Of a DNA stretch of 64,000 bases, positions 1 to 64,000 are shown one piece after another. Position 1 is the first letter of the stretch. Every line of letters starts with the position of its first letter. The stretch covers positions 62,001-126,000 of the forward strand of contig JADIIU010000030.1 of NCBI GenBank assembly GCA_027603945.1. The letters are read 5' to 3'. Source of the stretch: Terramyces sp. JEL0728. Lineage: Eukaryota > Chytridiomycota > Chytridiomycetes > Rhizophydiales > Terramycetaceae. The position numbers and the translations under genes were made by a program. Under the pieces are notes generated by a model. The model was not told the DNA's origin. It saw only the letters and a program-made list of their open reading frames with translations, and ran no database searches.

Positions 1-700
1 AATATCCGCGGCTTTCTTGATTCTATATTACGAAACACGTACTCATTGACTGTTTCCTGCAAATTTTGCATATCCTGCTCTCCTTTCTTCAAATCAGTAT
101 CCAAACTGGTAATCTTTATTCGATATTTGTTTGTTAAATCCTCCCTACGTTACCATAACTTACAGTTCCTGGATGGTTTCCTTTTGGACTTCAACTTCAT
201 TGTGGTAGCTATTTAACGCCAAAGTACCTCTCAACTTCAGCGATTGATTTTTTTGCCTGCTATTAATTAAAGTTACAATCAACGGCTTGCCTTGGATCAC
301 GCCAAGTTTTCGTCCCTAGATTAAAAATGCCTACAGTTTCGACTCTAGGCGGTATGTGTGAGTACGCCGTTCTCTTTCTGGTTTCTGACTCGTGTAAAGT
401 TTTGTAATAATTCAGCTTTGTTTTCAGACTTGAAGAATTGGTGCTTAGCGCTTGTATCTGCTCTTTCAAAGAATTTATGTAATCGACATCTGGTTTGTCT
501 TTGATATCTCCACTAAATATTAAAATACCTTTCGGGGTTCCCTTGTTTATCTGCAGGTTGAGTTTGTTCAGTTTTACTAGTAGCCTATGTCAATCCGACA
601 GGTACTTTTTAGTGCTATCGTCATTGGATTTGAGCTTCTTTTTCAACGCAAGATTTTCATCTCTTAAACTGAAGATTTGATCCTCCCGTTCATCCAGCAT
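1..700 (-). CDS. RPGRIP1L-like ciliary transition-zone protein, N-terminal part (runs off the left edge)
   Basis: The gene starts at 700 and runs leftward out of the window, so only about 200 N-terminal residues are visible. They are coiled-coil. A segment with RDEN...KKLLVKLNKL, followed further on by RTAYSHIPPRVET, resembles the N-terminal coiled coil of RPGRIP1/RPGRIP1L, a scaffold of the ciliary transition zone. Introns inferred from frame are 585..605 (21 nt), 209..227 (19 nt) and 145..163 (19 nt). A further one near 260..283 is uncertain because no standard GTA donor restores frame. Removing the 21-nt intron removes the only early in-frame TGA. An ACGCGT box lies 9 bp before the ATG. 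Identity rests on two remembered motifs, so other centriolar coiled-coil proteins are possible. Confidence 0.6.
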
Positions 701-709
701 TTTAGATGG

Positions 710-715
710 ACGCGT
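710..715. promoter_or_regulatory. ACGCGT (MCB-like) box before the RPGRIP1L-like gene
   Basis: A palindromic ACGCGT sits 9 bp upstream of the start codon at 700. The same hexamer at similar distance precedes IFT172, TEX9, the C2-like gene and the LicD-like gene. In other fungi this hexamer is the MluI cell-cycle box bound by MBF; that function here is inference. Confidence 0.4.
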
Positions 716-753
716 TTGTTGACGAAAAAACACAAAAAGAAACAAAAATATGT

Positions 754-3482: not shown

Positions 3483-3674
3483 TTGGTATAATTTTTCAAA
3501 CGGTAATTTAAATCAAATGGTGCACACGCGCATTGATTGCTCATTAAATGCAAGGGTTGAAACGAGCCTTACCGGGAACATATATGGATAACACAAGGTT
3601 CATATCAACTCGAAATGAATCTCAAAGCTCAAGATCAAACTTTGGTATAGCTCTTGAAATATATGATGATTTTA

Positions 3675-4571: not shown

Positions 4572-4713
4572 TTTATCCTCAAGTGGCAGTCAAAATCAGA
4601 TGACTCGTCCAGCAAAGTCATGCAATACTGGTAATTTGAGATAAGCTTGATTGCTCGGCATCCGACTCGTATGCATCGCACTGAAGCATCACAGAACATG
4701 AAATAACAATACT

Positions 4714-9178: not shown

Positions 9179-12100
9179 TCATGTAAAGTAAATAGGAGCC
9201 TGGCTGGATCGGCACCACGGGCAGGCCTATTGTCAATTAAACTTACTCTTTCGATCATAACGTACTTATTCCAGTCGTCTTTGTTTGCGAATTTGGAGCA
9301 TGTTGTGCATTTAACTCTATTTCTCGATAACGGGTACCCGGTAACGACACAAGGCTCGTACACCTTTTTACAGCTGTAACAGTCCAGAGATGCGTCGTAG
9401 ATTACAGTTTTACAATTTTCACACTCTCTTTTGTCTGTTTCTTGGTTTACCTTTTGATCTAATGATATCTGTAACACCCAATCTCTAATTTGTTCGATTT
9501 TTTCATTCTACTTTAGATAAACAGTACTTGAATGGCTTTGGATGGAAGTTCTACATCAAACGGAACATCGGTGTTGATAAAATCAGTGTTCTCGATCATT
9601 GAGAGGTCGCCTTCCTCAATTGCCTCACTCAAATCCAAATATCTGTTCCAACATACAAATGCCATGGACAGCATTCCGGAATTCTAATTTAGATAAATAA
9701 TACCTTTGCTGCTTGACCGGCTTCCAAAAACGTCTTGTCTGCTGGCAGGATGTTTGTGTATCTGAGCAATGCAATAGCTTGTTTTGCTGCAAAGTACAGC
9801 AAATCACGCTTCTTTGAGCATGAACAATGCAAAGTCATATAATGCGCAATTGTCAAGTATAACCCAAAGGCTTCCAGCAATTTCGGATTTGCAGTAATTC
9901 CCGTGCCGTGGATTAGTTGGAAAAGCATATTTCTTAGTGAAGCGATATTTTCAGAGGTAGCGTTTCTATCCTTTAGCACTGCAACTGATATTCTCTTGTA
10001 CAACTCCAAGTTATTTTGTGAAGGCGGGGCTCCATATTGATTAATTACACTGACTGCAGTGTGGAAATTACCTTGGGTAACCAGCAAGGTGCAGTAGCTT
10101 GCCAAGTATTTGCCGAGTACTTCAATATTCATACCTGCAGCCGCAGTCTCCAAGCACTTTTCCCATTCTCCTCTCTGCGCAAACACTTCCAAACCTGCGT
10201 TTACATCAACCTCAACTAATGCGTCGCCGTGGCCAGATGTTTTGAGGTGTTTCACATAAGCGTATTCAACATAGTCGGTGTATTTTGGTGCATAAGTTAC
10301 AATGTGTCTTGCCTTTTCCCAGAGTCCTCCAGCAATGAAGGTATCGATTGCATCCTTCAATTGTTCAATTCCAGCATAGAGCTCTCCTGCCGTATCGAAT
10401 TTGCCAATTTCAACAAGCTTTTTGCAGGCTGCGACGACGATTTCTTTGCCTTTTTCCGGCACAAACTTGACTGCAAGATCTGCAGCTCTCCCCCATTTTT
10501 CTTCGAGTAAATCTAAATCCTCGGTGTGAGAAGTGGAGAGTTTCAAATACATTTCGACGGCGCGAAGATATTCTTTTTGAAGCTCAAAAGCTTTTGCTGT
10601 TTTGATCAAATGGTCCTTTCCAGCATCTGATTGTCCAGAGAGATACCTATCATATTCTTGGTGCAGTTCTGCCGCTTTATTCGGAACATACTGCTTTGTA
10701 AACCTTAGGGCCTCTTTCCAGTTGTTGCTCTCCTTGTACATCTTTATAGCCAATTCCGGTCTTTGAGCTCTTAGAATCAGTGATTCTGCTTTTGCAAATT
10801 CATTCTTTGAAAATAGAACCTTTGCTTGTCCAATCAATACTTCTGGGACACTGACCGGTTCATGGTTTTCTGCAACAGCCAATGCTGCTTCCCAGTGTTC
10901 ATCGTGAATGTACATCAAAATAGCTTCTCTAGGCTTCCCAGCCAAAATGAAAGCAGTTTCGGCTTCTTTGAACTTTCCTTCATCTTCCAAAAACATTGCG
11001 TGCTTGTAGTGTACATCTGCCAGCTTATGTTTATCTGCAAATCTAGATAGTTCAAAAGCAAAGTCAAATGCTCCATTTTCAGTCGCAAAGTCTATAGCGG
11101 AATCGAGGAGGTTGAATTTCGTGAGCAATTTTACGGCAGATTCACCTCCCAAGGATCTTGCCCACAGATATGCAACCTGCTTTGCTGAATTTGGACCACC
11201 ATGAGATTTGCCCACTCTATAGGCTTCTTCAAACATGTTGTTTGAGCAATACATGTTTATTGCAGATTTGAAATCGCTCGCTTCTACAAAGTGATATTCT
11301 GCTTGTTTCAGGTTTCCTTCCGATTCCAACGTCTTTCCAAGATATAGATGGGTTTCGTTTAGCAAGTCATTGTGGTATTGTGTGACCAATCGAATCATAT
11401 TGTCATAGTTTTGGTGGTTTTTGTACATATTGATTGCTAAATCTGGTTCTCCAACAGTAATGTACAGTTTCTCTGCGTCTTTCAGCTTTCCTTGAGATTC
11501 CATCTCTTTTGCTTGTGCAATATACCAGCTCGAAACATTTTCTTTTGACATATACGAGATTGCCAAGCTGTGTGCCTTTTCCCATTTGTTTGCATTTGTG
11601 TACATTTCAACTGCATCTTGTGGATTGCCGGCCTCAACGTAATATTTCTCTGCCAAACTTGTCTCTCCCACAGATTTAAAATGCTCTGCCATTTGTAGAA
11701 CACACGGCCTTGCTTGGTCGCTTGATTGAAGGGTATCCACTATGCTGACTGCTTTCTTCCACTGCTTTGCCAAAATGGCTGCTTCTAACGCTTTGATGGA
11801 TTTTCCGGCTTCGATAAAGTGATTAATTGCTCCGTCCGTTTGTTTTTGAGTCATTAAAAAGTCGCCCCATTGCTAATGTTAATCAGAGTTACCTCTTCCA
11901 ATTTTACAACCTCAGACGGATAGAGTACCCGCGATAAATCCACTGCTGCTCGGAATGCCTTTCCTTTCCTGTAGGCATCTAATGCCCTCTCATTGCCGCC
12001 CAATCTTTCGTATAGTTCACCTGCCTTTGCAAACAATCCTCCCTTATACAGCGCGCCAGCAACTCTTTCAGTTAATTCTACATTGTTAAACAAGCTGTTT

Positions 12101-14593
12101 TGGATTAGAACCTGAGCAGCTTTCGATGGAAGGCCGCCTTTCAAGTAAAGATTGATGGCCGAGATGTAGTCGTATTCCTCTTCCTTGATCAGAGCAGCCT
12201 TTTCCTCTTGCCCAGAATCAATCAACCACTGGAAATAATTCTTTTTCAGCGTATCCAATTCTGGATGATTTTTAAGCTCTGCAACCTTTATGGACATGTC
12301 CCATTTGTGCATTTCTTGGTACATTTCCATAGCCTCTTCTACTTTGCCTTTTTCCAAATAAATATTTTCTGCCACTTTGAATTGTCTATCCAATACCGCA
12401 AGCTTTGCTCTAACAGCATAGTGATCCAACTCCATCTACTTTAATATTATTTTACATTTGGATTATCTTGGCCCGATTGATCGATGGTATCATTCAAGTT
12501 GTGAAGATATTTAGATCGGGCCACGTCCCCAATGGCTGCATAACACCGTTCGGCGATTCCCAATTTTTGATCTTTCAAAGCAGTTGTACTAAGGCTTTTC
12601 CACATTGCTTCCGTTTCAGTGGTCATTTCCAAGGTCTCCAGCAATGCAATTGCTCTTTCATAGTCTTTATCATCCAATGCCGCTCCGAATTCAATCAAGC
12701 CTTCGTCAAGCGTATAAGAGACTGTGTTTACACCTTCATCGACTATCACTTCGGTTTTTCCATTTGCTCTTTCGATATCCTCAATTTCGCCCTTGATCGG
12801 GAACATGGTAACTCTTTCAGGGCTGTCGATAGAGTACCAGATGCACAGGTTTCCTCTGCTCTGTGCGACAACCACATCGCTGTTAGGAACCCACTAGTGT
12901 TACGCCAGCGTACCTGAACATAGCTGCAAAAGTGCAGCAGAGTAACCCTAGTCAATGTTTGAATATCATACAGGTGTAACTGTCTTCTTTTGTCTCTGAA
13001 TAGCAATTTATTTGCTTTTCCTGACAGCTCGAGCCAGTCAATCTTTGAATCATGCGAAATTGTTGAAATGGTCAATCCGGTAGCTAAATCTAAAATTTGC
13101 ACAGTTTGCAGATCCACCAAATAAGCGACTTTTTTAATATCTTCGTCTGCTTTGCTTTCGCTGATTCGCACGCTTATCAAGTGTGGACTCATATGTTCTG
13201 TTCTGCAAGATCCCAGTAGCTCATTGACTCCATATTCAATCAAAGATAATTCTCCAGCATTAAATACCATACAAATCTGCGGGTTTTCAAAATAAAACTT
13301 TTCATTCCCACTGCCAGTCCACGGTACTTCGCTCAGTTTGCAGCTTGCCAAATCTCCCATCAACAAAGTCTCTGGGGTATTGGCAATTAAAAATTGATCT
13401 TGGAAAATATTCACCTTTTGGATTTCATATCCGTAATGAGACTTGAGTACGATTCTTGAACCAGTAGACAGCCTCTTGACAATCACCTGGCTTTGCGAAA
13501 CGTAATTGAATTCAAATTTGCCCTTGTACCGTGATCTTCGTAGACAGCAATCAAATAGTTCGACAGCACCATTCATATTTCCCTAATCTTAAAAGATAAC
13601 TACCACGACCAACCTTGAGCCGTCCGGTTTCCATCCCAAAGCACTAATGGTGTAAAAGTTTTCAATGGTTTTCATTTGCGCTTCTTCCCATTGCCCTTTG
13701 GAAATCAAATAATTAAAAATATGCAATCTACGTAAAACAACAAGTACCTATCGTAACTTCCAATCACTATGCACTGACCAGATGGACTTTGCTCAGCAAC
13801 CGTAAAATCCTGAATATCCGGATTGAGGGAATAGTCAAACTTCTGAAGCACTTTTCCTGCCATCAGTACAATATACCTTCGGCGTCGTAGAAAACCACAG
13901 TGCGATCTGGGCCAGCAGCCATAACTGATTCACCCCAAACCAATGAAATTGGCGGGCAAGGATGGGTACAAAACTTTCCCTGAGACGCTCCAGAGACGCC
14001 ATCATCAAAAAAGAACCTGTTAATAGCTCCATCCAAATGTCCAGTAATGATAGCATTTCCTTCAACATTACTGACAGCTGATACGACGCACGATTCAGTC
14101 TGATACAAAGTTGCTGCCTTGTTTGTTTTCAAATTTCCAACTCTGACTTTTCCATCGCTTAATCCAAATACGATTGCGTTGTGCTGCTCTCTTGGCCAGG
14201 TTAAACAGGTGATATCCGCAGTTTGGATGAACTTGTTGCAAATAGACTTTTTTTCGCCCCAGTCTAATCCCAGCTTGTAAACATAAACCACGCAATCCGA
14301 TTGCGCAACTGCCAATTTAGTTGAATCTGGAGAGAATGCCAATCCACAAACAAAATAAGATCTGATATTCTAATTTAAACGTGAAATACTTTTGAATCGG
14401 CAGGTTTAGTTGCAAATCTATCCTTTCGCTCCCCTGTTTCGTCAAATAATTGGATAGTCCTGTCTGCCGTAACGACAGCTAATTTTTGATTATTTGGAGA
14501 CCAAGCAAGCGCTGTTACCCTATTCGGCGAATCTCCTGAAGCTATTATCGACTTTAAATGTCTATTGTTGGCTGATATTTACCTAATCTGCAT
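9179..14593 (-). CDS. IFT172: Intraflagellar transport protein 172 (IFT-B)
   Basis: Twelve exons are joined by eleven introns of 20-21 nt (14562..14582, 14370..14389, 13857..13876, 13728..13747, 13583..13603, 12894..12913, 12436..12455, 11873..11892, 9684..9703, 9508..9527, 9227..9246), giving about 1730 residues, close to the usual ~1750. The first exon is only 11 nt. Removal of each intron reproduces continuous IFT172 sequence: N-terminal WD40 repeats (e.g. KPADSK then [17 protein letters not shown]), then long TPR-like repeats ([21 protein letters not shown]), then a C-terminal cysteine module with CENC, CYSC, CTTC and finally CPWC. The last intron is needed to reach CPWC and the true stop; unspliced reading would run into the opposite gene. 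IFT172 is the peripheral IFT-B subunit acting at the ciliary tip, so the organism has a flagellum at some stage. Confidence 0.97.
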
Positions 14594-14688: not shown

Positions 14689-15582
14689 TTAAAGAGGTTT
14701 TTCGTTCAAAATGATTGGAGTGAGGATTCTGGCTTGCATAAAGTCAATTAATCCAACTAAATTAGCAACAGTTACCTGTCTTTTTGACAGATTCTCCCCA
14801 TCCTTTTTCCTTCCAGGTTTCTTCTCTCATCTCTTTACGATGTTGCAATGTAGGATATGCCCACATGTGATGGACATAATTCAAGTGTCCGATTTGAGAA
14901 AACCAAGCACCTACAGGTTGGACGTGTTGTTTTCGGGCTTCCAATCCCATACGCCTACATTATATTTAATTACCATCCTGTAATTAGCAATAAGTACCTT
15001 GTTCCCATTCAAGCAATTTCCCGGGCTTCAAGAGATATGATCGCAGTTCATAGATAACGTCGGTATCGTGAGGAACCGACGCATTCCAGAATGCGAATTC
15101 AAGTATAATTTGAGAATCCCTTGATCTTAGCATTGGTCTTATTTTCTTTTCAAGCTCAGCATCCACTCCCTGAAAATCAGCGAAAATCACCTTGTTCCTA
15201 TTCGCAATCTTTGCTTCATGAAATGCTTCATATCCTCCGGGATATTCCCATAAATGAACTGTTTTAACAAATGATTACTGGCTTGGTCCAGCTCGCCGAC
15301 AGTGTTTTCCCATACACCAAACAACTTTCGTTGATCACTAACTAATTGCGGATGAAATTCCTTCATGGTTCCAATGTAGTCACTCATGGCTTCCGGCTTA
15401 ACATTGTGGATAGTCATTTCGTGGATAGACCTGCCATTTGCGAGCAACTTGGAATAAGTTTCATTTAAATCTTCTGCTTTGAGATTGCCGTGGAGTATAG
15501 TGTTTACAATGTCCTTTGCAGATAATGATACCGCCCTTTGCTGAGTAATTAGCTTGGTTATCGGTGAGAGCCCAAACTTCAT
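14689..15582 (-). CDS. NIPSNAP-family protein with a 4-nt micro-exon
   Basis: Five exons with introns at 15259..15278 (20 nt), 14978..14997 (20), 14955..14973 (19) and 14757..14775 (19) give about 270 residues. Each join restores NIPSNAP-like sequence: GELDQAIHLWEYPGGYEAF, then the second repeat with YELRSYLLKPGKLLEWEQGW, then AWFSQIGHLNYVHHMWAY, and an end with ARILTPI. The exon at 14974..14977 is four bases long and supplies parts of the Gly and Trp codons of EQGWR. NIPSNAPs are mostly mitochondrial dimeric alpha-beta-barrel proteins linked to mitophagy sensing; the N-terminal ~25 residues could be a presequence. The stop is within TTTAATAAA. Confidence 0.88.
14974..14977 (-). other. Four-nucleotide micro-exon of the NIPSNAP gene
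   Basis: On the coding strand the order is donor GTACTT...TTACAG (20 nt), then GATG, then GTAATT...TGTAG (19 nt). Leaving out the four bases breaks frame; including them gives the conserved tryptophan and continues into the family motif. Confidence 0.8.
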
Positions 15583-34657: not shown

Positions 34658-35027
34658 ATGCAGGTTGACCCGTCAACACTTTCGGAACAAGACAGACAGT
34701 TCTATGAGAAATACGGAAGGTTACCCCCACAAAAAAAGCCATTAGGACAGCGCATAAAAGTAGCTATTATTAACCTAGGTATAATTAATCTAATTGTAGG
34801 GTGGAGATCGTAAATACTTTGATTCCGGTGATTATGCAATGTCAAAGGCAGGAAAGAGTGACCCAGAAAACGTCGGTAAAGTGAGAATTAATGTAGGTTC
34901 ACAACATCCAAGTCCTGAGAGGATTCCTCATTCCATCCCGCAGACAATGAAAAAAGGCGATATGACACACTCTCCTGTTAAAGAAAGCGGACTAACACAT
35001 GAACAAGCAGTCAAAGAAGGTGTTTAA
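34658..35027 (+). CDS. Endosulfine/ARPP-19 (Igo1-like) PP2A inhibitor
   Basis: Coding parts 34658..34759 and 34800..35027 give 109 residues. The conserved core is FYEKYGRLPP then DRKYFDSGDYAMSKAGK, containing FDSGDY, the motif phosphorylated by Greatwall/Rim15 kinases that turns the protein into an inhibitor of PP2A-B55. In fungi this controls quiescence entry and mitosis. The intervening 40 nt consists of two complete tiny introns placed end to end (19 + 21 nt). The acidic start and long C-terminal tail are typical of the family. Confidence 0.95.
34760..34799 (+). other. Two abutting introns (19 nt + 21 nt) with no exon between
   Basis: The 40-nt stretch reads GTAGCTATTATTAACCTAG (34760..34778) followed directly by GTATAATT...AATTGTAG (34779..34799). 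Each half has its own donor, branch-like TTAAC or CTAAT and TAG acceptor. Frame is preserved only if all 40 nt leave. Confidence 0.7.
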
Positions 35028-36074: not shown

Positions 36075-36109
36075 TTATCACATAATAAAGCCTGATTTTC
36101 ATTGTATGA

Positions 36110-36117
36110 TACGTCAT
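36110..36117. promoter_or_regulatory. CRE-like TACGTCAT before 7-TM gene 2
   Basis: ACGTCA core, 22 bp before the ATG at 36140. Confidence 0.35.
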
Positions 36118-36139
36118 CCTCACTTTTACTTTTTTTCTC

Positions 36140-37045
36140 ATGCCAAATATACAATTGCTAACTAGTAGTGCGTTGGGATATATATGTTTGTTGATATTTG
36201 TATTCTCGTATTTCTTTAGTGTGTATATGATTACAAGGATATGCACTGCAGAAAAAATGACAGCTCTTAGTATACAGCTTTTATTTTTTCAAATAATCAG
36301 CATCGCATTATTATTCTTTATCGCGCATAATTACATATACAATTACACTATACAGATGAGTTGCGTGGTGCAGATTTGCGAAGGTACAATGCTGCTGGCC
36401 GTTGCAATTGTGAATTTGTGGGTTCTTCGGTTTTACGAATCAGGGAATCAACATAAATACGGTATTTACATTAAATTCGGAATAGGCTACTTGCTGGCTC
36501 TGTACTTTAGCAACGTAATCATTACAATAATTGTGACAATTGCTCCCATTGAAATCTTGAACAAGATCAACGTGATTGTGGTATTAGCACTGGCTGTTTC
36601 GGTTGTGATTTACAATATTTCTCAGGGAATTTATTTGATTGTCAAAACATCGAGGACGAATACGAATGAGAAGATTCAGCAGACTTCGGCATATCTGAAA
36701 GCCAAAATATTGATACTGGTAATGATAGTATTGGATATATCAGGGACATTATGTTACGCTATCTCGAGTTTTGCAATATTGGACCATGACACTACCGTAA
36801 TACTGGATATGATACCAACAGGGCTGACCTGTATTCATTTTTCAACCATACAAGTAATGTACAGACAAATCAATGATATTCAAGTTGCAAAAATGAATCA
36901 AAAAAGCGTAGAAATTGTCACTAGTAATACCTTGGCCAGATGGGTTGCGAATATCTTGAAAAGGAAAACAATCCAGGAAGAAGAAGAGTTTGACGACAAT
37001 TATTCGCAGTTTCAAAGCCTCGCACCAGATACAAATCTAAAATAA
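36140..37045 (+). CDS. 7-TM array protein 2
   Basis: Intronless, 301 residues, starting MPNIQLLTSSALGYI. It has seven hydrophobic segments with the array signatures VVIYNISQGIYLIV (segment 5), IVLDISGTLCYA (6) and CIHFSTIQVMYRQIND (7). The tail KTIQEEEEFDDNYSQFQS repeats the C-terminal motif of proteins 1 and 3, which suggests a shared cytosolic partner or trafficking signal (inference). The stop lies in AAATAAA. Confidence 0.8.
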   Translation: MPNIQLLTSSALGYICLLIFVFSYFFSVYMITRICTAEKMTALSIQLLFFQIISIALLFFIAHNYIYNYTIQMSCVVQICEGTMLLAVAIVNLWVLRFYESGNQHKYGIYIKFGIGYLLALYFSNVIITIIVTIAPIEILNKINVIVVLALAVSVVIYNISQGIYLIVKTSRTNTNEKIQQTSAYLKAKILILVMIVLDISGTLCYAISSFAILDHDTTVILDMIPTGLTCIHFSTIQVMYRQINDIQVAKMNQKSVEIVTSNTLARWVANILKRKTIQEEEEFDDNYSQFQSLAPDTNLK

Positions 37046-37219
37046 ATCCATAATACTTTTTAGCTTGCTATTGGCTCTTATCTTTGGTATCTCGGCTATA
37101 CTAACGCGGAAAAACGGAATAGTTCCTTTGCAGTTCCACAAGTATAAATCAGGATTAAAATAATACTATTGATTCGATTTTGCAGCTCACTTTCAAGACT
37201 CATTGTTTGGCAATGATTT

Positions 37220-37227
37220 TGACGTCA
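37220..37227. promoter_or_regulatory. CRE palindrome TGACGTCA before 7-TM gene 3
   Basis: Perfect palindrome, 29 bp before the ATG at 37257. Confidence 0.45.
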
Positions 37228-37256
37228 TTGCACTTTATAAAACTTTATCGATTGCC

Positions 37257-38138
37257 ATGCTTCATAATAAGATCCAGATACATACCCCATTGGATTACCT
37301 TGCCGTAATATCAATCCTAATTTCATTTTTTATCAGCGTGCTATCTATTGGGGCAATCAACACGGCAGCCAAACGACCGGTATTCACCAATCAATTAATT
37401 TTCTTTCAAATCATCAATATCAGTATGCTATTTTATACATTCTATCATTATTATTTTTTCACTTCAAATGCAGTTGGGAGAACAGTGGATATGCTGGTAA
37501 ACACGTTAATATTTGGTGTAGCTGTTACGAACCTGCGAATTTTGAAAATATATCAAAAAGTAAATCAGGATATTACAGATAAGAAGGTGCAAGTGATTGG
37601 AATATTTTTTACTATACTTTATGTGATTGCCATGATTCCGTCGGTTATCCAGCTTGTCGTGAACGGCACGCTGATATCTAATATCCAAATTTTCGCAGTA
37701 ATTGTATTCTCTCTATTTGTAATTATATATAACACCGCACAAGGTATCTATCTTATTTGGCTGGTTTATAGTTCTGTTGGCACAATTAATGATAGCCGCA
37801 CAGCTTTCAGAAGAGCCAATTTCTTGATAGTATCAATGATAGTAATGGATATTATTGCCTTGATCTTGTATATCATTCAAAATTTCGTGACTGTTAGTCA
37901 AACAGATTTCAGCGTCCTCGGTATTCTCGCAACGTCAATAATCGGAATACACTATTCTACTATACAGTTGATGTTCAAAGTTCTTAATCAGGTTGGGAGC
38001 AAGTCGAGTGATTTACAAAGAAAGTCTACGAGAGCATCAGAATTAATTGGGCAGCTCTGGCAGAAAAAGATTACAGAAGAAGAAGAATTTGACGACGGGT
38101 ATTCGCAATTCCAAAGCATTGGTGGTGGTGTTTTGTGA
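37257..38138 (+). CDS. 7-TM array protein 3
   Basis: Intronless, 293 residues from the ATG at 37257 (MLHNKIQIHTPLDY). This is the closest paralog of protein 1: FTNQLIFFQIINISMLF in segment 2, VIIYNTAQGIYLIWLVY in 5, IVMDIIALILYIIQNF in 6, IIGIHYSTIQLMFK in 7 and the tail KITEEEEFDDGYSQFQS. The CRE element lies just upstream, inside the longer alternative frame that begins at 37203, which supports the later start. Confidence 0.8.
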   Translation: MLHNKIQIHTPLDYLAVISILISFFISVLSIGAINTAAKRPVFTNQLIFFQIINISMLFYTFYHYYFFTSNAVGRTVDMLVNTLIFGVAVTNLRILKIYQKVNQDITDKKVQVIGIFFTILYVIAMIPSVIQLVVNGTLISNIQIFAVIVFSLFVIIYNTAQGIYLIWLVYSSVGTINDSRTAFRRANFLIVSMIVMDIIALILYIIQNFVTVSQTDFSVLGILATSIIGIHYSTIQLMFKVLNQVGSKSSDLQRKSTRASELIGQLWQKKITEEEEFDDGYSQFQSIGGGVL

Positions 38139-38195
38139 CCATTGTTTAATAATAAACACGTAATTGAAACCGCTGGTTAGTAACTAATTTTCACA

Positions 38196-39023
38196 ATGAC
38201 CACATCAGTAATGAATTTAAATCAGCCGCTATATATTCTATCAGCATCCCTATTGGCTTTATCATTTGTTATCAGCATTGTAATGCTAGTTCTATTGTAT
38301 TCAGCCGATTCAAAAAAGACATTCACCATTCCATTCACTATCTTTCAGATACTAAATTTAATTCAATGCATAAATGTTACATATAGCCATTATTACAGGT
38401 ACAGCATAATCATGGAAAGGCTGCAGGATTTCTTTGTGTGTTTAATGGTGCTTGGGATCTTTACGATTACTTTGATGATATTGCAGATATACGAAAATCT
38501 AAATTCTGCAAGAGCACAATTTATCCTCAAAGTATTTAAACACATCGGTCAAACTTATTGTCTGATAGCATCAATTTTTTCACTCCTATATGCCATTAGC
38601 CCACATCTATTTCCGCAGCTGCGGATTCTGAAACTTGCTCTGGTTACGGTTTGGTTTATTAGCGTAGTTCTATACGACAATTGCCAATCAGTCTATCTAA
38701 TTTTCAAGGTATTTGCCAGAAATTTTATGCATAAAAGAAGGGAGGTGGTGAACGAGTTTAGAAGGGCATCTTCCTTTCTCTTTATTGTAATCATTATTGA
38801 TTGGATAGGGATAATCCTGGGAATTTTACAGTCCAGTCAAACTCTGCAAAACACGATGCTGTTTTCAGAAATTGGAATTGCGTGCACCGGACTTCATTTA
38901 TCTCTCATGCAAATAATGATAAAGGAACTTTATCTGCTTTTGTTGGTTGGAAATATGCAAGTTTCATGTGGCTTTGTAGTATCTTGCACTTCGCTCGATG
39001 ACATATCTGGAACCGCTACATAA
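38196..39023 (+). CDS. 7-TM array protein 4
   Basis: Intronless, 275 residues. Segment signatures are altered: VVLYDNCQSVYLIF (5), IIDWIGIILGIL (6), CTGLHLSLMQIMIKEL (7). The acidic EEE...YSQFQS tail is missing. With protein 5 it forms a subgroup having YDN-QS and DWIG in place of YNTAQG and LDI. No clear CRE is seen upstream, only an ACGT core about 35 bp before the start. The stop is in TAATAAA. Confidence 0.78.
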   Translation: MTTSVMNLNQPLYILSASLLALSFVISIVMLVLLYSADSKKTFTIPFTIFQILNLIQCINVTYSHYYRYSIIMERLQDFFVCLMVLGIFTITLMILQIYENLNSARAQFILKVFKHIGQTYCLIASIFSLLYAISPHLFPQLRILKLALVTVWFISVVLYDNCQSVYLIFKVFARNFMHKRREVVNEFRRASSFLFIVIIIDWIGIILGILQSSQTLQNTMLFSEIGIACTGLHLSLMQIMIKELYLLLLVGNMQVSCGFVVSCTSLDDISGTAT

Positions 39024-39178
39024 TAAATACCAGTTGGATTTCCCTATTTCTCAATGTTGCACGCGATATAGCCAGATGGGAGCAGCAGGAGAGATGCCTT
39101 TTTATTGAGATTGTAAATATTTATTATCCATTGATAAGGCATTGTGAAATCACCATTGTTACCTTTTATCTAGCCAAC

Positions 39179-39997
39179 ATGCCAAATACACAGTTGGGAT
39201 GGAGCTCTCCCTTGGAAATTTTGGCTTTTCTAGTAATAGCAGGTTCATTTGCACTGAGCGTTGGAATGATTGCAAATATATTCGTAAACCCAAAGAAACA
39301 GATCTTTACATGGCAGCTAACAGTGTTTCAAATGTTGAATCTTATACAATGCCTCAATATGTTTTATTGTAATTACTATAGGTTCAGTGTTACCCTGAAT
39401 AAAATTGTGGATGCGCTGGCTGTAACTATGCTGCTGGGGATCCTGGTAACTGGATTGCGCATATTGAAAATTTACAAGTACATCAATCCAAATATATCAG
39501 ACCACTGGACCAGAGTCGCGAACACTGCCACGCTAATACTCTACGTTATAGTGATTGTGCCGTGTTTAGCCAATGTTGCCATGACTCCATATTTACCCCA
39601 GCCTTACAAAATGATTAAAGCGTATATAATGATGGTGTGGACAGTCATAGTAGTAGTGTACGATAATGTTCAATCAATTTATCTATTGAATTTGGCATAT
39701 GGGAGGAACCAATTCAATGCAAAGGAGCGCGTAATTTTGGAATTTCGGAAAGCTACAGCAGTAATACTATTTATAATGGCAATCGACTGGATCGGTGTAG
39801 TCTTTGAAGGAATTCTAATTATGGAGTCGGACGGTTTCAAACAAATGGTTTATGCGCAAATTGCGGTAGGTCTTTCAGGCATCCACTACTGCGGAATGCA
39901 AATGATGATGAAGCAGTTGTGTGTGCTGACATTCTCTGGCCTCACTCCGCCCAAAGTTCAAGAATCCACCTTCAAAGCAACAGAACTCAGCTTATAG
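39179..39997 (+). CDS. 7-TM array protein 5
   Basis: Intronless, 272 residues from the ATG at 39179 (MPNTQLGWSSPLEILAF). This start aligns with proteins 1-3; the open frame extends upstream to 39131 without support. Signatures are VVVYDNVQSIYLL (5), IDWIGVVFEGIL (6) and GIHYCGMQMMMKQL (7). The tail is short and lacks the EEE motif. TAG is followed at once by AATAAA. Confidence 0.78.
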   Translation: MPNTQLGWSSPLEILAFLVIAGSFALSVGMIANIFVNPKKQIFTWQLTVFQMLNLIQCLNMFYCNYYRFSVTLNKIVDALAVTMLLGILVTGLRILKIYKYINPNISDHWTRVANTATLILYVIVIVPCLANVAMTPYLPQPYKMIKAYIMMVWTVIVVVYDNVQSIYLLNLAYGRNQFNAKERVILEFRKATAVILFIMAIDWIGVVFEGILIMESDGFKQMVYAQIAVGLSGIHYCGMQMMMKQLCVLTFSGLTPPKVQESTFKATELSL

Positions 39998-40009
39998 AAT
40001 AAAAATGAC

Positions 40010-40017
40010 TGACGTCA
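40010..40017. promoter_or_regulatory. CRE palindrome TGACGTCA before 7-TM gene 6
   Basis: Perfect palindrome, 28 bp before the ATG at 40046. Confidence 0.45.
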
Positions 40018-40045
40018 GCATTTTAAACTTTGCTACCTTTCAATA

Positions 40046-41316
40046 ATGGACACAGGCCCAGATATCTTGCTGTATGTAGAATATATTGCAATCGGAATTT
40101 CAATATTATTGTGTTTGGTCGTTGGATCAAAGCTGTTTTTTGGAGGCGACGGCATAAAAGCCCAATCAAAGGATATCGCTTATCTTTTCGTATCGCTATT
40201 GCTTTTAGTATTGAAGATCTGTATCATATCGATATCTTTAAAAAGTCCGATACTACAAATTTTGATGTTTATTTTGCACTGGACTGTATTGCTGGGAATC
40301 TTTGTTTTGAATTCGGTTATATTAGAAATATTCAACAAGTTCGATAAAACCATCAGTATCGAGAAAATCAGGGCATCCCGATTGGTATTATACATCTTTT
40401 ACGTGCTGGGGATGCTTCCTGCCATAGTAGACGTGTATTTCATAGTAGCCTCACTGTCGCGGACTTGGATACATAATGTGATATTTTCTTATATTAGTAC
40501 TTGTTTTACTCTCGCTTGATTTGGGAATTGGGAATTAATATCTTGGAAACTATTCAGTATGTTGCTGTTTATTATCGAAGCACTAAAACCTCGGCAATGG
40601 AATACACTGTATTGCAAAAGGAATTGCCAGGGCGGATCTGGATTTTTATATTGGCATTTGCGCTCTCTTGGTGTAGCTTTATTCTGCTTGTTTTTTCAAA
40701 TCAGCAATTATCCGATTGCGCAATGGCTTTCAATTGTTTGCGAGTATCGTTGCTTGTTGTTATCAAGAAATTAATCCAAAGAATATCTCGAAAGCTACTT
40801 AAGCCAAAAAAGATGTCTGGAATATATTCTCACCAGTCATACCTGCCAAAGTCAACGAGTTCCGGATACGAACCTTCAAGATCATTTAATGATGGCACTC
40901 AATCTCATAAATCGTATCAGGAAAGTTCAAAGTCATACAAGGGATCAGGGTGTTTATCTAGGGAAGATCAAGTGAGGAGAACAAATACCAAGGAAGAAAA
41001 TAGATCAAATAAATCCGTACTTGCTAAATTAGAAGAGCTGATTCAAGAAGAAGAACGAAAAGCCAATATTAATCAAGGTGAAACCCGAAGGCACTCAAAT
41101 ATTAAACAGCGTGACCAATCTTTCCCAAGATTAGAGGAAATAAAACGAGCGCATACATATACCGATAGACGGAAAAGTTTAAAAGAAGATGCAGTCGGAA
41201 AGCAGTTTTCACCAGAGGAATATAGAATGACACCATCAAAGAGCTCCAAGATGCTGACTGAAATCGATGCAAGGAGGAAATCAGCACAGTATTCCAAGCC
41301 GGATTTTCAGTTGTGA
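40046..41316 (+). CDS. 7-TM array protein 6 with long cytosolic tail
   Basis: Two exons with a 20-nt intron at 40478..40497 give about 416 residues. Seven hydrophobic segments are visible (e.g. ISILLCLVVGSKLFF, DIAYLFVSLLLLVLKICII, HWTVLLGIFVLNSVIL, ILETIQYVAVYY, IWIFILAFALSWCSFILLVF). A ~170-residue polar tail follows, beginning with YSHQSYLPKSTSS and rich in Ser, Arg and Lys. Protein 7 shares the intron position and the SYLP motif, so 6 and 7 form the second subfamily of the array. ETIQY in segment 5 parallels the Q-x-x-Y of the other members. Confidence 0.75.
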
Positions 41317-41433
41317 TATGCTACAGCAATGTTATGACTTTTATACCCAATCAAGTCTTCTAGATCACTTTTCGGATGTATTAAAGTAATAAACCAACAC
41401 TTGATAATCCTTTCGATACCGTAAGTTTTTGCC

Positions 41434-41441
41434 TGACGTCA
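41434..41441. promoter_or_regulatory. CRE palindrome TGACGTCA before 7-TM gene 7
   Basis: Perfect palindrome, 25 bp before the ATG at 41467. Confidence 0.45.
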
Positions 41442-41466
41442 ACCCAGCTGTAAAAATCCTTTACAA

Positions 41467-42548
41467 ATGGACATGCTAAATGTTGCTCTGATTTACTTGC
41501 AAGCGGTATTGTTGGGAATCAATGTTATTGTTTGTGGGTATGGCATGTATAGATATCGCAACGACAAACTCCACTATATCCTGCTTTTGTTTTCCGCGTT
41601 TCTACTGGCCCTATTCAAAATGATACTAGTGATTCTCAATGTCACTCTGCCGGTATATGCAATGACAGCAATGATTTTGCATTGCACGGTTGGTTTAGGG
41701 ATTTTCGTGATCAACTCGGTTATACTGCAAGATTTTACAATTTTTGATCAACGGATAAGCGTCACTAAAATCAATACTGCTAGGCTGTTTATGTACGTTT
41801 TGTTTGGGATTAGCATCATTCCGCTGTTAATCGGGATTATCAATTCTGCCGCGTCAATCTACAAAGCCTGGGTGGAAAAGGTAAAACGTTTTCAATGTAG
41901 TATATCTTGTACTATCAAATGTGCTGGTTCCTCTTTGTTGATTTTCTTGAAACCCTGCAGTATATCTATCGGCACGTTACCCTAAGTCGGCAAGTGGATA
42001 ATGAATTGAAATCGTTGAAAAGGGGAATCGCGGCCAAAGGCAGAATTAGAGTGGTGTCGTTGCTTTTCGCATGGCTATCACTATTATGTCTGTGTTTTGG
42101 TCAAGAAGGATTTTCAATGACTTTGAATTGCACGCGTTTGGCAATTCTCGTTCACCTTAAAAGGGTATTGACTGATACGATCAAAAAACACTTGTCAAGG
42201 AGAATGGGAGGGATGCACTCCCAAAAATCGTATTTACCCCAGTCATTTGCGTCGCAGCGTTCGTCAGTGAAACCTCGTTCACATGTGCGATCATTACGCG
42301 AAAATAGTGGCAGGGAACATAGTGGAAATTCTAAAAGAGAAACAAACATCCAAATGGAAACCAGCACTCCTAAAAAAGAGGTTAATTCCGCAAGATCTCC
42401 CTCTGCAGATGGCAAATCGAGAGAAGGTTCGATCCAAGACGCCAGTGCATCACTTTCAAAAGCCGAGGCGAAAAAAGAGATAAGCTTGCTCATTAAGCAA
42501 ACGGAATCTGAAAACACTTGTACTACACAAACACAGAATGCCGACTAG
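41467..42548 (+). CDS. 7-TM array protein 7 with long cytosolic tail
   Basis: Two exons with a 20-nt intron at 41881..41900 give about 353 residues. The membrane part mirrors protein 6: LHCTVGLGIFVINSVILQDF, AWVEKYILYYQ across the splice, VDFLETLQYIYRHV, RVVSLLFAWLSLLCLCFGQ and NCTRLAILVHLKRVL. The tail begins MHSQKSYLPQSF, matching YSHQSYLPKS of protein 6, then is polar and Ser/Lys rich. It is the last gene of the array; the next gene converges from the minus strand. Confidence 0.75.
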
Positions 42549-47857: not shown

Positions 47858-50163
47858 TTAAAAAAGGATTTTATAAACCAACGTAACAAATATAGCTAAT
47901 AACGTCGGAATGAGGTTATTAGTAGCTGCAAAATTCCTCAACCACCATAAACCAGCATTAGGCAGCCAAGCCAATTCATTCTGCGCCTTAAATTCACCAT
48001 ACTACATTAGCCAAACTTACTTTTTCATCAAACAGCTGAGCAAGGTAATTAAACAAATATACAAGGCTAGCAAATTCGTTTGATTTTACCAGCTCAAGAG
48101 ATTTCTTTGACTTTAGCAATTGTATCTGTTTTGAATCCGATTTACGCACACCATGTTTAATCTTTTTAAATGAATTTTACCTGTTCTCTGCCTCTATAAG
48201 TCAGGACAGTTTGGAATCTTTGTGGTTCGTAGACACCAGGTTCGATTTCGTTGAGTTCAGTTTCTTCCAGATGAATCAAATCGCTTGTTGTTTTCTTCAA
48301 GATTGGCTGCTCGTATTCTGGCAGCTGCCATGTCCTCGTTAGGATAGCCTTTGTTTGTTCCAACCGCAAAATGGTCTTGTCAATCAAAACCAGCTGATCT
48401 GCAGATATTTCTTTTGTTTCGCTAAAGAACTGGGATATCTTTTCAAATAAATTGTCAGGAGAAGGCGGTTTCGATTGATGTTGGGATTTCTTGTGTTTTA
48501 ATCTCTCCAAAGTTTCAAACAATCTTGTTCTTAGTATCGCTGGCAGGATCAAGTCGTCGGATTGTGGTATTTCTTCAAACAATGGAGTATACTCGTACTT
48601 GGTATGTAATGAAATGATATGCACACGAGTCTTTGGCCCGCTGTTTCTATATTGATAAGCAACATCGCCAGAATGTTCCTTAATTGACCCCATTCTTGGA
48701 GTACCAAAAGTACGGGACGGAGTTGCACTCATTGCTGTTTTAGGAACAATTCCGGTCGAGTAATTGTCCAGAGATAGCAGCGCTGTTTCCATTGCTTTCA
48801 ACAATGCAACGAGACTATCGTCCGCGTAACAATCAATGACTTTTTCGGTAATCGACAAGAAATCATCCTTCTTTGCACCTGCTGGAAGAGCTTTCAAAGT
48901 GTGGGAAACTGGTTTTTGAGGTCTGGCAGACGAATAGAAATCAAACTTTTGGGAGCGAGCCAAAAACAATTGGAATATCTTTGTATAAAACAAAAAGTTG
49001 TCAGTGACAAAGAGAGACCTTTGATTAAATCTAGTTACCAATCGTCTGTGAACCTACTTTTAGTAGCCCTCCATGGAAATGCCCAAGATATCCAACAATC
49101 TACAATCTACAATAAATTAGAAATCACCCCTCCAATAGAAACATCGTTTGGCCAGTGCAAGAATGCCATGTACAAGAATCTGTAGAATTTGACAGAGAAT
49201 GCTTTGTAACTATATACTTTGATGTGTTCATTTAAATTATCCTGCTCTAAAGACATTCTTTGGTCGTTGATGTACTTTAGATCCAACGACACCAAGTATT
49301 TGGAAATGATATTGATGCATTCGATTTGATACGAATTTGGTTTTGCATAATTCGTAATTTTGGTCGAATTCAACCCTACAGTTTCAAAGTCATTTTGGCA
49401 CAGCAGTTCTTCAATCAAGGCTTCAATAAAGAACTGACTTGTTTTAAGTGCGGATGACAGAGAATCGATCGCCGTGCACTTGAAGATGCAGGAATTATCC
49501 AATTGAACGGGTACTTGCTTTGGCTGATTCTTGACTGGAGTCTGCATGAAATCCACTTGCTTTTTAGGAATAAAGAAACCGAGGTACTGCTTTAGCAATT
49601 CTGAATAATTCGGGTTCAAAATTGATTGGAATTGCGGTTTGATATTTGAATCCAATATAGTAGATTCAAGAAAAGTTGGACATTGACTAAAACAAAACAA
49701 GTAGTATTCAATCATATTAAACATGATGCGGTTCTCCTTGTCCCTTGTTAATAGATTGCCCTTGTACATTGGGGAGAGGTTTGCGAGATCCGCAGAAGCC
49801 AGTATCTTTCTCGTTGCTTCCTACATTAACAATACGTACTGGCAGTATTTCAGGCGAGATGTAAAATGAAAGCGAATTATCATACTGGAAATAAATTAAT
49901 TTCAAAATAAAGATATTCTGAGGTTTGAAAATGTTTACTGGTAAATCTTTTATCTGTGAGTGGAATAGCCCTTTTTTAGTGTTTAGCGATCCAAATAGAG
50001 CTGCGCAAAGCTCGGGGATGTTTTGGAATAGTGGACGTGAGATTGCGGAATCGTGTGTTGTTGACAACCATTGATTGACGAGATTGATTGCGTCCTTGAG
50101 CTTCTTTATATCTCCATGCTTTGAAATATCGATCCAATCTTTTAGTAATCTATTTGGGTCCAT
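47858..50163 (-). CDS. SMPD4-like (neutral sphingomyelinase 3 family) membrane protein
   Basis: Six exons with introns 49821..49839 (19 nt), 49107..49127 (21), 49031..49053 (23), 48162..48180 (19) and 48002..48020 (19) give about 734 residues. Motifs resembling SMPD4 include IEYYLFCFSQCP, LKQYLGFFIPKKQV, LYMAFLHWPNDVSIGG with ISWAFPWRAT after the splice, and NFLFYTKIFQLFLAR. The C terminus is a tail anchor (TLLAIFVTLVYKILF). SMPD4 is an ER and nuclear-envelope protein that interacts with nuclear pores; its sphingomyelinase activity is debated. Assignment is from remembered motif order and should be checked by profile search. Confidence 0.7.
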
Positions 50164-57248: not shown

Positions 57249-57307
57249 AATAGGGTTTATTGGTAATAAATAATAAATAGATTTTTACGGATTGGATAAA
57301 CCCTATT
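57249..57307. repeat. 12-bp inverted repeat between two minus-strand genes
   Basis: AATAGGGTTTAT (57249..57260) and its exact complement ATAAACCCTATT (57296..57307) are separated by 35 bp. The right arm overlaps the stop of the small gene at 57306. A stem-loop in RNA or a bound factor is possible; similarity to TTTAGGG telomere units is probably chance. Confidence 0.4.
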
Positions 57308-59190: not shown

Positions 59191-59270
59191 TAAAGATTGG
59201 TCTCAATTGATAACACGAGCTTCCATCTGAGAAACGCTGCACCAACTAAATTCATTTAAATTTATTAATA

Positions 59271-60724: not shown

Positions 60725-60983
60725 TCGCAAAGTAAAAAGCTGACAACGTCACAGTATAAAAATTTGCCGTTTTATCATGTGAAAAACACAGACAAGGAGA
60801 GAAAGTGTCAATCAAAAAGAACTCTGGCTTTGCAATTGGAAAAAAGTAGTTTGCATAATCAAAAAGAAAAGAATGTAAATTTTTTGGATTGGCGGGTGCA
60901 AGGTTCTGCAAAGAAATCGTGTTTCGACTTTTTCCGCATCGAAAGCTGGTCTTGTGCGAAAAAAGTTTAATGCAAGGATTATA

Positions 60984-63553
60984 TTATTGTTTAATACCCA
61001 TCCAGAAACTAGCATACATATTGACTCTGTCAATGAACATAGTTTCTCCTTCACGCACTTGGCAAACCTTGACTTTAAATCCTTGTTGTTCAAACAAGAC
61101 GTTATACCAAGGCGCCTTACCTGCAGATCTCCAAAATACATAACCTCCAGCAGCCATCTTTTGGTGGACTGCTGCAATTTCAGCTTTAGCATCTTCTTCA
61201 GAGAACCAATCAAGGTGGTCCATAAGAATAACTTTGGTGAGTTCGCCATCCTTAATAGTCTTCAAAACATTGATAATGTAATCAGTGTGGATCTTGATAG
61301 CATCGATACGGTGTGGTTCAGCAAGTAAAAGGTTGTACCCTTCTTCGGTAAGATAAGCTGGGTTTCCAGTGGCTGCCTTGTTGTACTTGAGCATGAGCGG
61401 CATGTAGAAAAAGTAGTTGTCATCTCTCAAGTGGGACTTTGCAATGACAGGGTCAAAAGTGTTTACACAGTACTCATGAGCAGAGCCTACAGTTAATTTA
61501 AGCTTACCTTCTTCCAATAGCATTTGCATTTGTGCTGGCGGTACACCCAAAGCTCCCCACAAGAATCTGTCGTTGTTCAATATACGAATTAACCATTTGT
61601 TCAACAAATGAGGACGTAGTTCTTCTGTCCAAATTCTGTTTTGTTCTTCAATAGTTTCAGCGGTACACATGCGCTCGACAATCGGTTGCAATCTGCGCAG
61701 TTTAATCACAAAGTTGAATACACGAACAGCGAGACCAGAACACCCGGTTTTAAACAGGTTTTTAAAGTTGCCAGTTTTCTTCCAGAAATCATAAGCATAT
61801 GGAGAAAGGTTTGGAGACAAGTGAGTATCGAGTAAAATTTGGAAGTCCTTGACGAAACCTTCACCCAAAAGTTTCCAGTAATCTTCATAGCAGAGAGAGG
61901 TAAGGGCTGCGAGTTTCAATTCGAGCATGTGGTTTTGGCAAGGGTTCAAATCAACAGAGTGGATTCTTTGTGGACCAGCTTTAATGGCATACTCTAAAAC
62001 GTTACATCCACCAGATGTAATTACAAACATATGATCTTCAGGTTTCAAGTCCAAGAACTGCAAATCAACCCTAGGATCTTCCCAAGCGAAAGCGTAAATA
62101 TAAGTGCTGAATCGGTCAATGAGTTTAGGGTCGAATGGCTGTCTCCATCTTAAGCCTTGTCCGTGAACGTGGTTGCTAGATACGTGTAATTCTTCTTTCT
62201 TTTCAACAGCAGTGGTTTCAACATCCATATCATCGGATACTACAGATACATCATCAGGAATTTCAGGAACACCTTCTGGGTTACCAGTACCGTCAAGAGA
62301 GAAATTAGCAAGCGATGGAAGAGCAGCTATAATTAACAAGCAGAACACCTTTTTGAGCACCAATCCAAACATAGTATGGGATTTTTACAAATGGCTTGAT
62401 AAAGTTATTAAGGGAATTAAGTGTTTTGACAGTTTTGAATTTGTGTTCAAGATATTCACGACGGCCAGGAGAAAGGTAAACGTTATCAGAATCGAACCAG
62501 ATGGCCCAGAACCATCTCATGAACCATCCAAGCTGACGAGTTGGGTCAGCAGAGCGTTTAGGAGATACATAGAAATCAGCTACGCCAAAGATACCAGTAG
62601 GAGCCAAAACTTGAGCAATTCTATCAACAATAGGATAGTAGGTTTCAATCATAGTCAACGAGTAGGACATGGTAATCAACGCAATATCGAGATCATCGCC
62701 ATCTTCAGCAGGGACTTCGAATTTGGAAGCATCCATGCACAAAACTTTAACATTGGTCCATCCAAGTCTTTCGAATCTCTTGCGAGCAATTTCGCACAAA
62801 GAAGGAGTAATATCAACGAGGTACACTCTGTCAAAGTTGGAGATTGGGAAGAACTGATTCATTCTTTCAATGTTTTCACCAGTACCACCACCGATATCGA
62901 TCCAGGCAAATCTCTTTCCAGCGCAAGACAAGAAAGCAGGAGATAATGGAGGAGACATCGGCTCGCCCTTTTCGTTGGTATATAAACCATTTCTATCACC
63001 TTTAAAGACCGAAGTGAAATCACAAGGATAAAGTTGGCGCAGTTGAGCAGCACACAGTTTCAACATGGTGCTTCTTCCACGAAGCAATCTAGCAATTAAC
63101 CAATGATCACCTTCTGCGAGTAACATCGTAAACATCAGCCTGTCCTTCATAAAATTCTTCAAGACGACTTTGGTGTTCGTCAGAATCAATTCCAGTACTC
63201 TTCTTTTTTAAAAATGGTTTAATGAAACAGTTGTAAGCAAATCTGAGGTATGGACGACCAATGGTTGACAAAGTGTAACCAATGAATGCGACCAAAAGCA
63301 GTGAAACGAATTGCAAACCTGATGGGAGGTAAGCTAATGCAGCGAATGAATTGACAATGCGTTGTTTGAAAATGCCGATGCTCGAGGTAGATGGGATCCA
63401 GTCGGAAGCAAGGAATGGAATGCAGAATGCAATGAAAAAGTAGAATCTCTTGTATAAAAAGATTGATTTTGAACTTGATAGTTTGGCGCCAGCCTTGACA
63501 TACACACCTTGTTGGTGAGCACCGTCAATCTTTGTTCTGGGAGTGACGTTCAT
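60984..63553 (-). CDS. BTA1: Betaine lipid (DGTS) synthase, BtaB-BtaA fusion
   Basis: Three exons with introns 63089..63110 and 62327..62348 (22 nt each) give about 841 residues. One or two N-terminal membrane segments are followed by the BtaB-like methyltransferase (YDVTRRRLLRGR across the first splice, then WIDIGGGTGENIERMNQFFP as SAM motif I). A linker follows, then the BtaA-like transferase (FSTYIYAFAWEDPRVDLQFL, VITSGGCNVLEYAI, VDLNPCQNHMLELK). The enzyme moves the 3-amino-3-carboxypropyl group of SAM to diacylglycerol and methylates it, giving the phosphorus-free lipid DGTS, made by many fungi and algae under phosphate limitation. The domain order is that of eukaryotic BTA1. Biased codons suggest high expression. 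Confidence 0.96.
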
Positions 63554-64000
63554 CAATTCAGCAAGAATTTTCTAGGTCATTTTTAAACCCAGATCTCAGG
63601 TGAAAAATGGACGCTTTTCAGCCAATCATTTTCCTCGTGTAACCCTTTCAGTATTTTACAGACGACAGCGGAGAAACCGCATACTGAATGGAAGCTGAGC
63701 GTTTGCCAGCTCTAGTGCTAGCGTTTGGGCAATTGCTATCCGCATCTGATTGGGCCAGTTGGGAATCATGGCAGGCCGGCATAATAGTGGTTGTTAAATG
63801 ACGGCCAACATATTCACATCAGTGCACTGAGGGGGTGCACGAGATAGAAGTTGAGTGCGATTTAGGCGGATTAGCAACTCTAACCGTTCTAATCAATTAT
63901 CGCGTATCAGCCAATTCGAGCACAACTAAGCGAATACCAAGAGGCAAGTTCAAGGGACGGTGAATTCTAATGAACAAGGCAAGATTGGCATCAAACCATT
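63554..64000. other. Upstream region of BTA1 with CCAAT-type motifs
   Basis: About 450 bp to the window edge. GCCAAT occurs near 63617 and 63910 and ATTGG near 63750, possible CCAAT-factor sites. No gene recognised; part of a neighbouring gene may begin at the edge. Confidence 0.35.

Follow-up and report, generated by a model that had tools for sequence, protein, structure and literature searches.

How short can the introns of an ordinary fungal nucleus become? The question is raised by a 64,000-nucleotide (nt) stretch of the Terramyces sp. JEL0728 genome, referred to here as the window (C30:62001-126000), whose genes are interrupted by blocks of about 20 nt. The host is a fungus of the Chytridiomycota, Rhizophydiales, Terramycetaceae, and its genome consists of 15,016,339 bases in 231 contigs. 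An earlier reading made from the letters of the window (the sequence-only reading) had proposed about 80 spliceosomal introns there, nearly all of 18-23 nt and mostly 19-20 nt. From the analysis below we consider that the blocks are best explained as major (U2-type) spliceosomal introns that would have shrunk to about 20 nt across the Terramyces genome, with a probability of roughly 0.94.

Length distribution of the introns

The sample comprised the window and 25 stretches of 10 kilobases (kb) from 20 other contigs, 314 kb in total, which is roughly 2% of the genome. A length peak is already apparent in a scan that used no gene models: in 264 kb, the pattern GTA...TAAY(N1-5)AG occurred 85, 85, 49 and 28 times at total lengths of 19, 20, 21 and 22 nt, against a background of 9-28 occurrences at lengths of 14-18 and 23-59 nt. 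Lengths of 10-12 nt were high as well (93, 64 and 59), probably because GTA and TAA overlap within GTAAY.

A gene finder whose information was limited to coding statistics, stop codons and the GT/AG termini, and whose length prior was flat from 10 to 59 nt, also returned introns whose lengths peak at 19-22 nt. Over the 314 kb it called 140 GT-AG introns of 19-21 nt, a per-length frequency 10.1 times the average elsewhere, whereas the same finder run with 31 other dinucleotide pairs made 8-33 calls at 19-21 nt, with ratios of at most 1.6; the highest control ratio (1.6) belonged to CT-AC, the reverse complement of GT-AG. Outside the peak (10-16 and 25-59 nt, 42 lengths) GT-AG was without excess, with 195 calls versus 185-405 for the 31 control pairs.

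After the finder was retrained on its own calls, and models of fewer than 90 residues or overlapping a longer model were discarded, the 314 kb yielded 215 gene models with 465 introns. Of these introns, 454 are 17-24 nt long: one of 17 nt, two of 18, 116 of 19, 193 of 20, 102 of 21, 29 of 22, eight of 23 and three of 24. They occur in 151 of the 215 genes and in all 26 stretches (21 contigs), at densities of 5-26 per 10 kb; by extrapolation from the sample, the genome would hold approximately 21,700 introns. With a single narrow length peak below 30 nt in every sampled stretch, the genome is one in which ultra-short introns are the general state. The window itself conforms to this pattern:

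1..64000, whole window: 45 gene models with 90 predicted introns, of which 88 are 19-22 nt long

The two other predicted introns (32 and 46 nt) are doubtful. The proposed number of about 80 is fair, because the false-call rate estimated below from decoys would remove about 9% of the 90. The proposed sizes agree as well, 20 nt being the commonest length in the sample, and the length histogram suggested as a check peaks sharply at 19-21 nt. The spliceosomal interpretation is supported by the intron-like behavior of the blocks, their generality across the 26 stretches and a peak confined to GT-AG.

Sequence organization of the introns

Consensus statistics were compiled from the 454 short introns, leaving aside the 11 of 465 that exceed 24 nt. 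As the sequence-only reading had described, most begin with GTA or GTG, carry a TAAY-like branch motif and end in TAG, CAG or AAG: the starts are GTA (403), GTG (31), GTT (18) and GTC (2), and the ends TAG (294), CAG (96), AAG (57) and GAG (7). The donor consensus is GTAATT, with A at position +3 in 89% and T at +6 in 59% of introns; T occupies +5 in 200 and G in only 97. A branch-like motif of the TTAAY/CTAAY type is present in 443 of the 454 introns (TTAAT in 111, CTAAT in 67, TTAAC in 52 and CTAAC in 33), the other 11 lacking a good match. Its position is nearly fixed, the branch A lying 13 or 14 nt downstream of the first G in 363 of the 443 and 5 or 6 nt upstream of the last G in 369.

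The sequence between donor and branch is 58% pyrimidine versus 47% for coding sequence, and the G+C content is 31% versus 40%. Among the 21-nt introns, 75 of 102 contain an in-frame stop, compared with 176 of 309 introns of 19 and 20 nt (P 0.003).

Comparison with related proteins

If the blocks are introns, the encoded proteins should be continuous in relatives where the blocks are removed. A relative was counted as supporting a junction if its alignment was gapless within four residues of it. One test in the window was IFT172, compared with 26 proteins (P0003-P0028), for the most part from named chytrids:

9179..14593, minus strand: IFT172 gene, 1730 amino acids, 11 introns of 20-21 nt
14562..14582, minus strand: intron 1, 21 nt; gapless in 21 of 26 relatives
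14370..14389, minus strand: intron 2, 20 nt; gapless in 22 of 26 relatives
13857..13876, minus strand: intron 3, 20 nt; gapless in 25 of 26 relatives
13728..13747, minus strand: intron 4, 20 nt; gapless in 25 of 26 relatives
13583..13603, minus strand: intron 5, 21 nt, with in-frame stops if retained; gapless in 26 of 26 relatives
12894..12913, minus strand: intron 6, 20 nt; gapless in 22 of 26 relatives
12436..12455, minus strand: intron 7, 20 nt, in a variable protein region; gapless in 13 of 26 relatives
11873..11892, minus strand: intron 8, 20 nt; gapless in 24 of 26 relatives
9684..9703, minus strand: intron 9, 20 nt; gapless in 25 of 26 relatives
9508..9527, minus strand: intron 10, 20 nt; gapless in 23 of 26 relatives
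9227..9246, minus strand: intron 11, 20 nt; gapless in 17 of 26 relatives

Keeping any one of the 11 introns would shift the frame or introduce an in-frame stop. The deposited protein HDV01_004251 of Terramyces sp. JEL0728 agrees exactly with 1727 of the 1730 residues of the final model, and most of the blocks removed here are likewise missing from the deposited Terramyces proteins, whose models were made by other workers. A second test was provided by TOP1 (stretch L018), where the eight units of introns 5-12 lie at six positions and have gapless alignments in 15-16 of 16 relatives. The SMPD4-like gene had been named together with IFT172 as an example, with 5 and 11 introns respectively, and both counts are reproduced; its junctions are those predicted by the gene model:

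47858..50163, minus strand: SMPD4-like gene (PF14724), 5 introns
49821-49839, 49107-49127, 49019-49038, 48162-48180 and 48002-48020, minus strand: introns of the SMPD4-like gene, of 19, 21, 20, 19 and 19 nt

Protein continuity does not by itself identify splicing, for the proteins would be restored equally if the blocks stayed in the RNA and were skipped by the ribosome, or if they were excised from the DNA. Translational bypassing occurs in some yeast mitochondria, and DNA excision in ciliates. We regard either process as very improbable here, in view of the GT-AG ends, the fixed-distance branch motif matching U2 small nuclear RNA (snRNA) and the presence of spliceosome genes in the same genome.

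It is similarly improbable that the short introns are assembly errors or gene-finder artefacts. Artefactual calls do arise: about 9% of calls also appear in codon-shuffled decoys, and an earlier IFT172 model had a false twelfth intron, which was dropped, the final model and the deposited protein both keeping those seven residues. However, the length peak is seen without any gene model and for GT-AG alone, and the removed blocks are absent from the proteins of relatives.

Spliceosomal components

The blocks have several properties expected of U2-type introns, namely GT...AG ends, a branch sequence able to pair with U2 snRNA and a genome that carries genes of the spliceosome. For a further one, a 5' splice site that pairs with U1 and U6, the observations are a GTAATT donor with G at +5 in just 97 of 454 introns and the negative snRNA searches given below. 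The U2 snRNA was identified by an Rfam match of 140 bits and contains the canonical GUGUAGUA, which is able to pair with the branch motif. A Prp8 gene was found, as was Slu7, for which two exons scored above the cut-off. In the survey of U1, U2, U6 and early spliceosome proteins that the sequence-only reading had suggested, U2 snRNA, Prp8 and a U2AF65-like match below cut-off were thus recovered, but U1 and U6 were not.

A number of results weigh against U2-type introns as the general explanation. Where real gene spans gave 462 short-intron calls, codon-shuffled decoys still gave about 41 per replicate, so that some 9% of calls may be false. TOP1 introns 1-4, which lie in a variable tail, are without alignment support (9, 0, 6 and 1 of 16 relatives). 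The best U2AF65-like match, 252 bits in a search that ignored introns, falls below the curated cut-off of 310; there were 27 matches, the weaker ones resembling other RRM proteins. A loss of Slu7, predicted from the report on Stentor discussed below, failed to materialize, Slu7 being kept even though it was expected to be dispensable. Finally, U1 and U6 snRNAs were not found by Rfam models or patterns, a result that says little because only part of the candidates were scored.

For U1, the Rfam model matched nothing, and the search is uninformative since control genomes were equally without a match; a U1 pattern gave two matches versus one for the reversed pattern, which is chance level, and of the two sites L031 reads as coding while L030 has an open frame across it. 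For U6, two Rfam matches scored 27 bits against a gathering score of 44; they are near-identical copies on contigs C199 and C111 and are unlike U6. Of three U6 patterns, two had no match and one had five, each with one or two mismatches, versus four for the reversed pattern; the best of the five (contig C65), which was the one inspected, resembles coding sequence by eye. Speculatively, the U6 gene may itself be split by introns. As a separate observation, the stretches of C199 and C111 that carry the false U6 matches (L023 and L024) are near-identical, have an open frame across the matches and possibly represent a repeated or duplicated gene.

Back-to-back introns and short exons

At three loci, complete intron units are arranged head to tail: 19+21 nt in an endosulfine-family gene of the window, 23+21 nt in a gene of stretch L020, and 22+21+21 nt in TOP1. 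Four junctions at these loci have the AG|GT arrangement between complete units that is expected for recursive splicing. The window example is organized as follows:

34658..35027, plus strand: endosulfine-family gene (PF04667 relatives), 3 intron units
34760..34778, plus strand: unit 1, 19 nt; the pair is gapless in 18 of 21 relatives
34779..34799, plus strand: unit 2, 21 nt, abutting unit 1 with a zero-length exon; gapless in 18 of 21 relatives
34876..34896, plus strand: unit 3, 21 nt, in-frame; kept as seven residues in deposited protein P0241, an insert absent from 21 of 21 relatives

At the two loci that were compared, endosulfine and TOP1, the proteins of relatives are continuous across the back-to-back sites. 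The units are probably removed stepwise, one after another, because loss of the first unit puts the GT of the next against the upstream exon. An alternative, which we consider a serious one at somewhat less than even odds, is that each array is a single intron of 40-64 nt removed in one step, its internal AG|GT being unused. The mRNA would be identical in either case, and RPS3 (L006 4781-5560, plus strand) contains a 45-nt intron, without such an internal junction, where the protein is conserved and unbroken; therefore longer introns can probably be removed.

What argues against one-step removal is the frequency and quality of the units. Four zero-length exons were seen, versus 0.56 expected from random intron placement (P 0.004) and 0.15 expected from chance motif runs in coding sequence, and there were none in three codon-shuffled decoy replicates; all seven units score above the 10th percentile of short introns, among which they had been used for training. 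These controls are tilted somewhat towards the claim of back-to-back introns, because the units belonged to the training set and the background is coding sequence; an AT-rich, intron-like background would raise the number of units expected by chance. Exons of up to 30 nt as a class number 17 versus 32 expected by random placement, short exons being the hardest to detect, and it is the zero-length ones that are in excess.

A very short exon occurs in a gene adjacent to IFT172, which was compared with proteins P0001 and P0002:

14689..15582, minus strand: NIPSNAP-domain gene (PF07978), 4 introns
14978..14997, minus strand: intron before the 4-nt exon, 20 nt
14974..14977, minus strand: 4-nt exon
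14955..14973, minus strand: intron after the 4-nt exon, 19 nt

By its match coordinates, the NIPSNAP domain spans profile positions 1-98 of 102 across this exon.

The RPS3 intron is also evidence against a strict length limit, and the rule is therefore about 20 nt rather than an absolute maximum. It is the one homology-supported intron above 24 nt that is not made of back-to-back units, RPS3 alone having been compared among the 11 longer calls. The total site scores of the 11 are 6.1-12.1, versus a median of 9.7 for short introns, and with this overlap some besides RPS3 may be real. Two introns of 45 nt might, speculatively, be read as nested introns. We also note a recombinase-like gene (L025 3754-4697, minus strand) in which introns of 36 and 19 nt are predicted on either side of an exon of 2 nt, a local structure that is uncertain.

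A possible mechanism and its implications

The layout of the introns suggests how they might be recognized. Each carries a GTAATT-like 5' splice site and, 13-14 nt beyond its first G, the A of a TTAAY or CTAAY branch sequence; a TAG or CAG acceptor follows after another 5-6 nt. Recognition could take in both ends jointly as a single short unit (intron definition); the constant spacing would then serve as a length ruler, and the first AG downstream of the branch would be used as acceptor. U2AF65 would be unable to bind a pyrimidine tract at the usual place, because no tract fits between the branch and the AG, and so would have to act in another manner.

A broader proposal, which we put forward tentatively and with the odds against it, is that the fungal spliceosome acts as an intron ruler, cutting out RNA for the most part about 20 nt at a time, and that certain longer interruptions have survived as back-to-back units spliced successively through zero-length exons. 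This would be the smallest-scale recursive splicing known, carried out with U2, Prp8, Slu7 and a U2AF65-like protein still in place.

An implication of U2-type introns of this size is that intron length can fall to the limit of about 20 nt in an ordinary fungal nucleus, one that retains U2 snRNA, Prp8, Slu7 and a U2AF65-like gene. The length is near the smallest known in any organism, making Terramyces a good system for studying the minimal working size of an intron. There is also a structural puzzle in how U1, U2 and the tri-snRNP (small nuclear ribonucleoprotein) would fit onto a donor-branch spacing of 13-14 nt with no pyrimidine tract after the branch, and the back-to-back introns would allow stepwise removal to be tested on molecules of 40-64 nt.

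Consequences for deposited annotations

Introns of this kind have affected deposited gene models (the Terramyces proteins concerned are P0001, P0121 and P0241). The endosulfine and TOP1 proteins retain 21-nt in-frame introns as seven-residue inserts, which are absent in 21 of 21 and 16 of 16 relatives, respectively, and one model fuses NIPSNAP with IFT172. The sequences suggest that the sister genus Boothiomyces has the same kind of introns: its deposited TOP1 carries an insert where the triple intron lies and is gapped at two further intron sites, and its NIPSNAP part is without two stretches. Around the NIPSNAP 4-nt exon, the deposited Terramyces model is short of 16 residues and the Boothiomyces model of 6. 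Because models from both genera are faulty, comparative work on the family inherits the errors.

Other genes in the window

Seven adjacent genes on the plus strand (35193-42548) appear by eye to encode related multi-pass membrane proteins with endings such as YSQFQS in common; those at 36140 and 39179 had no Pfam match, and five of the seven are without a predicted intron. At 60984-63553 (minus strand), one protein joins a methyltransferase with DUF3419, the layout known from the fungal betaine-lipid synthase BTA1.

Comparison with known systems

Recursive splicing is known from the ratchet points, or zero-length exons, of long fly introns. As in the back-to-back units, AG is followed directly by GT, and a new donor is formed after the first step. 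The fly sites divide very long introns, whereas the units in Terramyces, candidate sites of such splicing, are 19-23 nt.

The closest counterparts in length are the introns of chlorarachniophyte nucleomorphs, which are 18-21 nt in Bigelowiella natans and 18-23 nt in the group (PMC6461891). Likenesses described there are the near-equal length, the generality and the GT-AG type, in a compartment with its own U1, U2 and U6 (PMC6461891). The nucleomorph, however, is what remains of an endosymbiont's nucleus, with 865 introns in 373 kb and, by that account, no identifiable 5' splice-site motif (PMC6461891), whereas Terramyces has a 15 Mb fungal nucleus, some 21,700 introns by extrapolation, and well-defined motifs at donor and branch. 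The genome is that of a chytrid fungus and not a relict green-algal nucleus.

In the ciliate Stentor coeruleus, introns are 15-16 nt long (PMC9505925). They resemble those of Terramyces in their tiny, near-fixed length and in having the branch A at a fixed place, and U2AF2 and U2AF1 homologues are listed (PMC9505925). They differ in being shorter and in their weak branch consensus, and their branch A usually falls at position 10 or 11; Slu7, Prp18 and Cdc40 are given there as undetected (PMC9505925), whereas Slu7 is present in Terramyces. At 19-21 nt, and with 13-14 nt from the first G to the branch A, the Terramyces introns fall outside the heterotrich 15-16-nt class. The sequence-only reading had supposed that such introns would strain spliceosome geometry; the spacing is indeed tight, but Stentor provides a precedent.

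Paramecium and Nyctotherus also have ultra-short introns (~25 nt) as a general state, with stops in introns divisible by three (PMC5014332). These are longer than in Terramyces, and the comparison extends to in-frame stops, which were tested here, whereas a deficit of 3n introns is described there (PMC5014332). A 23-nt intron of Trichomonas was named among the shortest known in 2025 (PMC12316389). Among the fungi studied, Cryptococcus neoformans has the highest share of short introns, including a small class of 20-40 nt (PMC11913375); its mean, however, is 56 nt and introns below 40 nt are a small population (PMC11913375), whereas 19-22 nt is the rule in Terramyces.

A survey of 644 fungal genomes, in the portions available to us, names no such case (PMC8476143), and among the papers listed in our literature search, mostly outside subscription journals, none describes a fungus whose introns are generally near 20 nt. 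The sequence-only reading had placed such lengths in chlorarachniophyte nucleomorphs and some ciliates. Introns of this kind are thus already known; as far as these searches reach, what is new in Terramyces is that they are the norm in a fungal nucleus and that some of them stand back to back.

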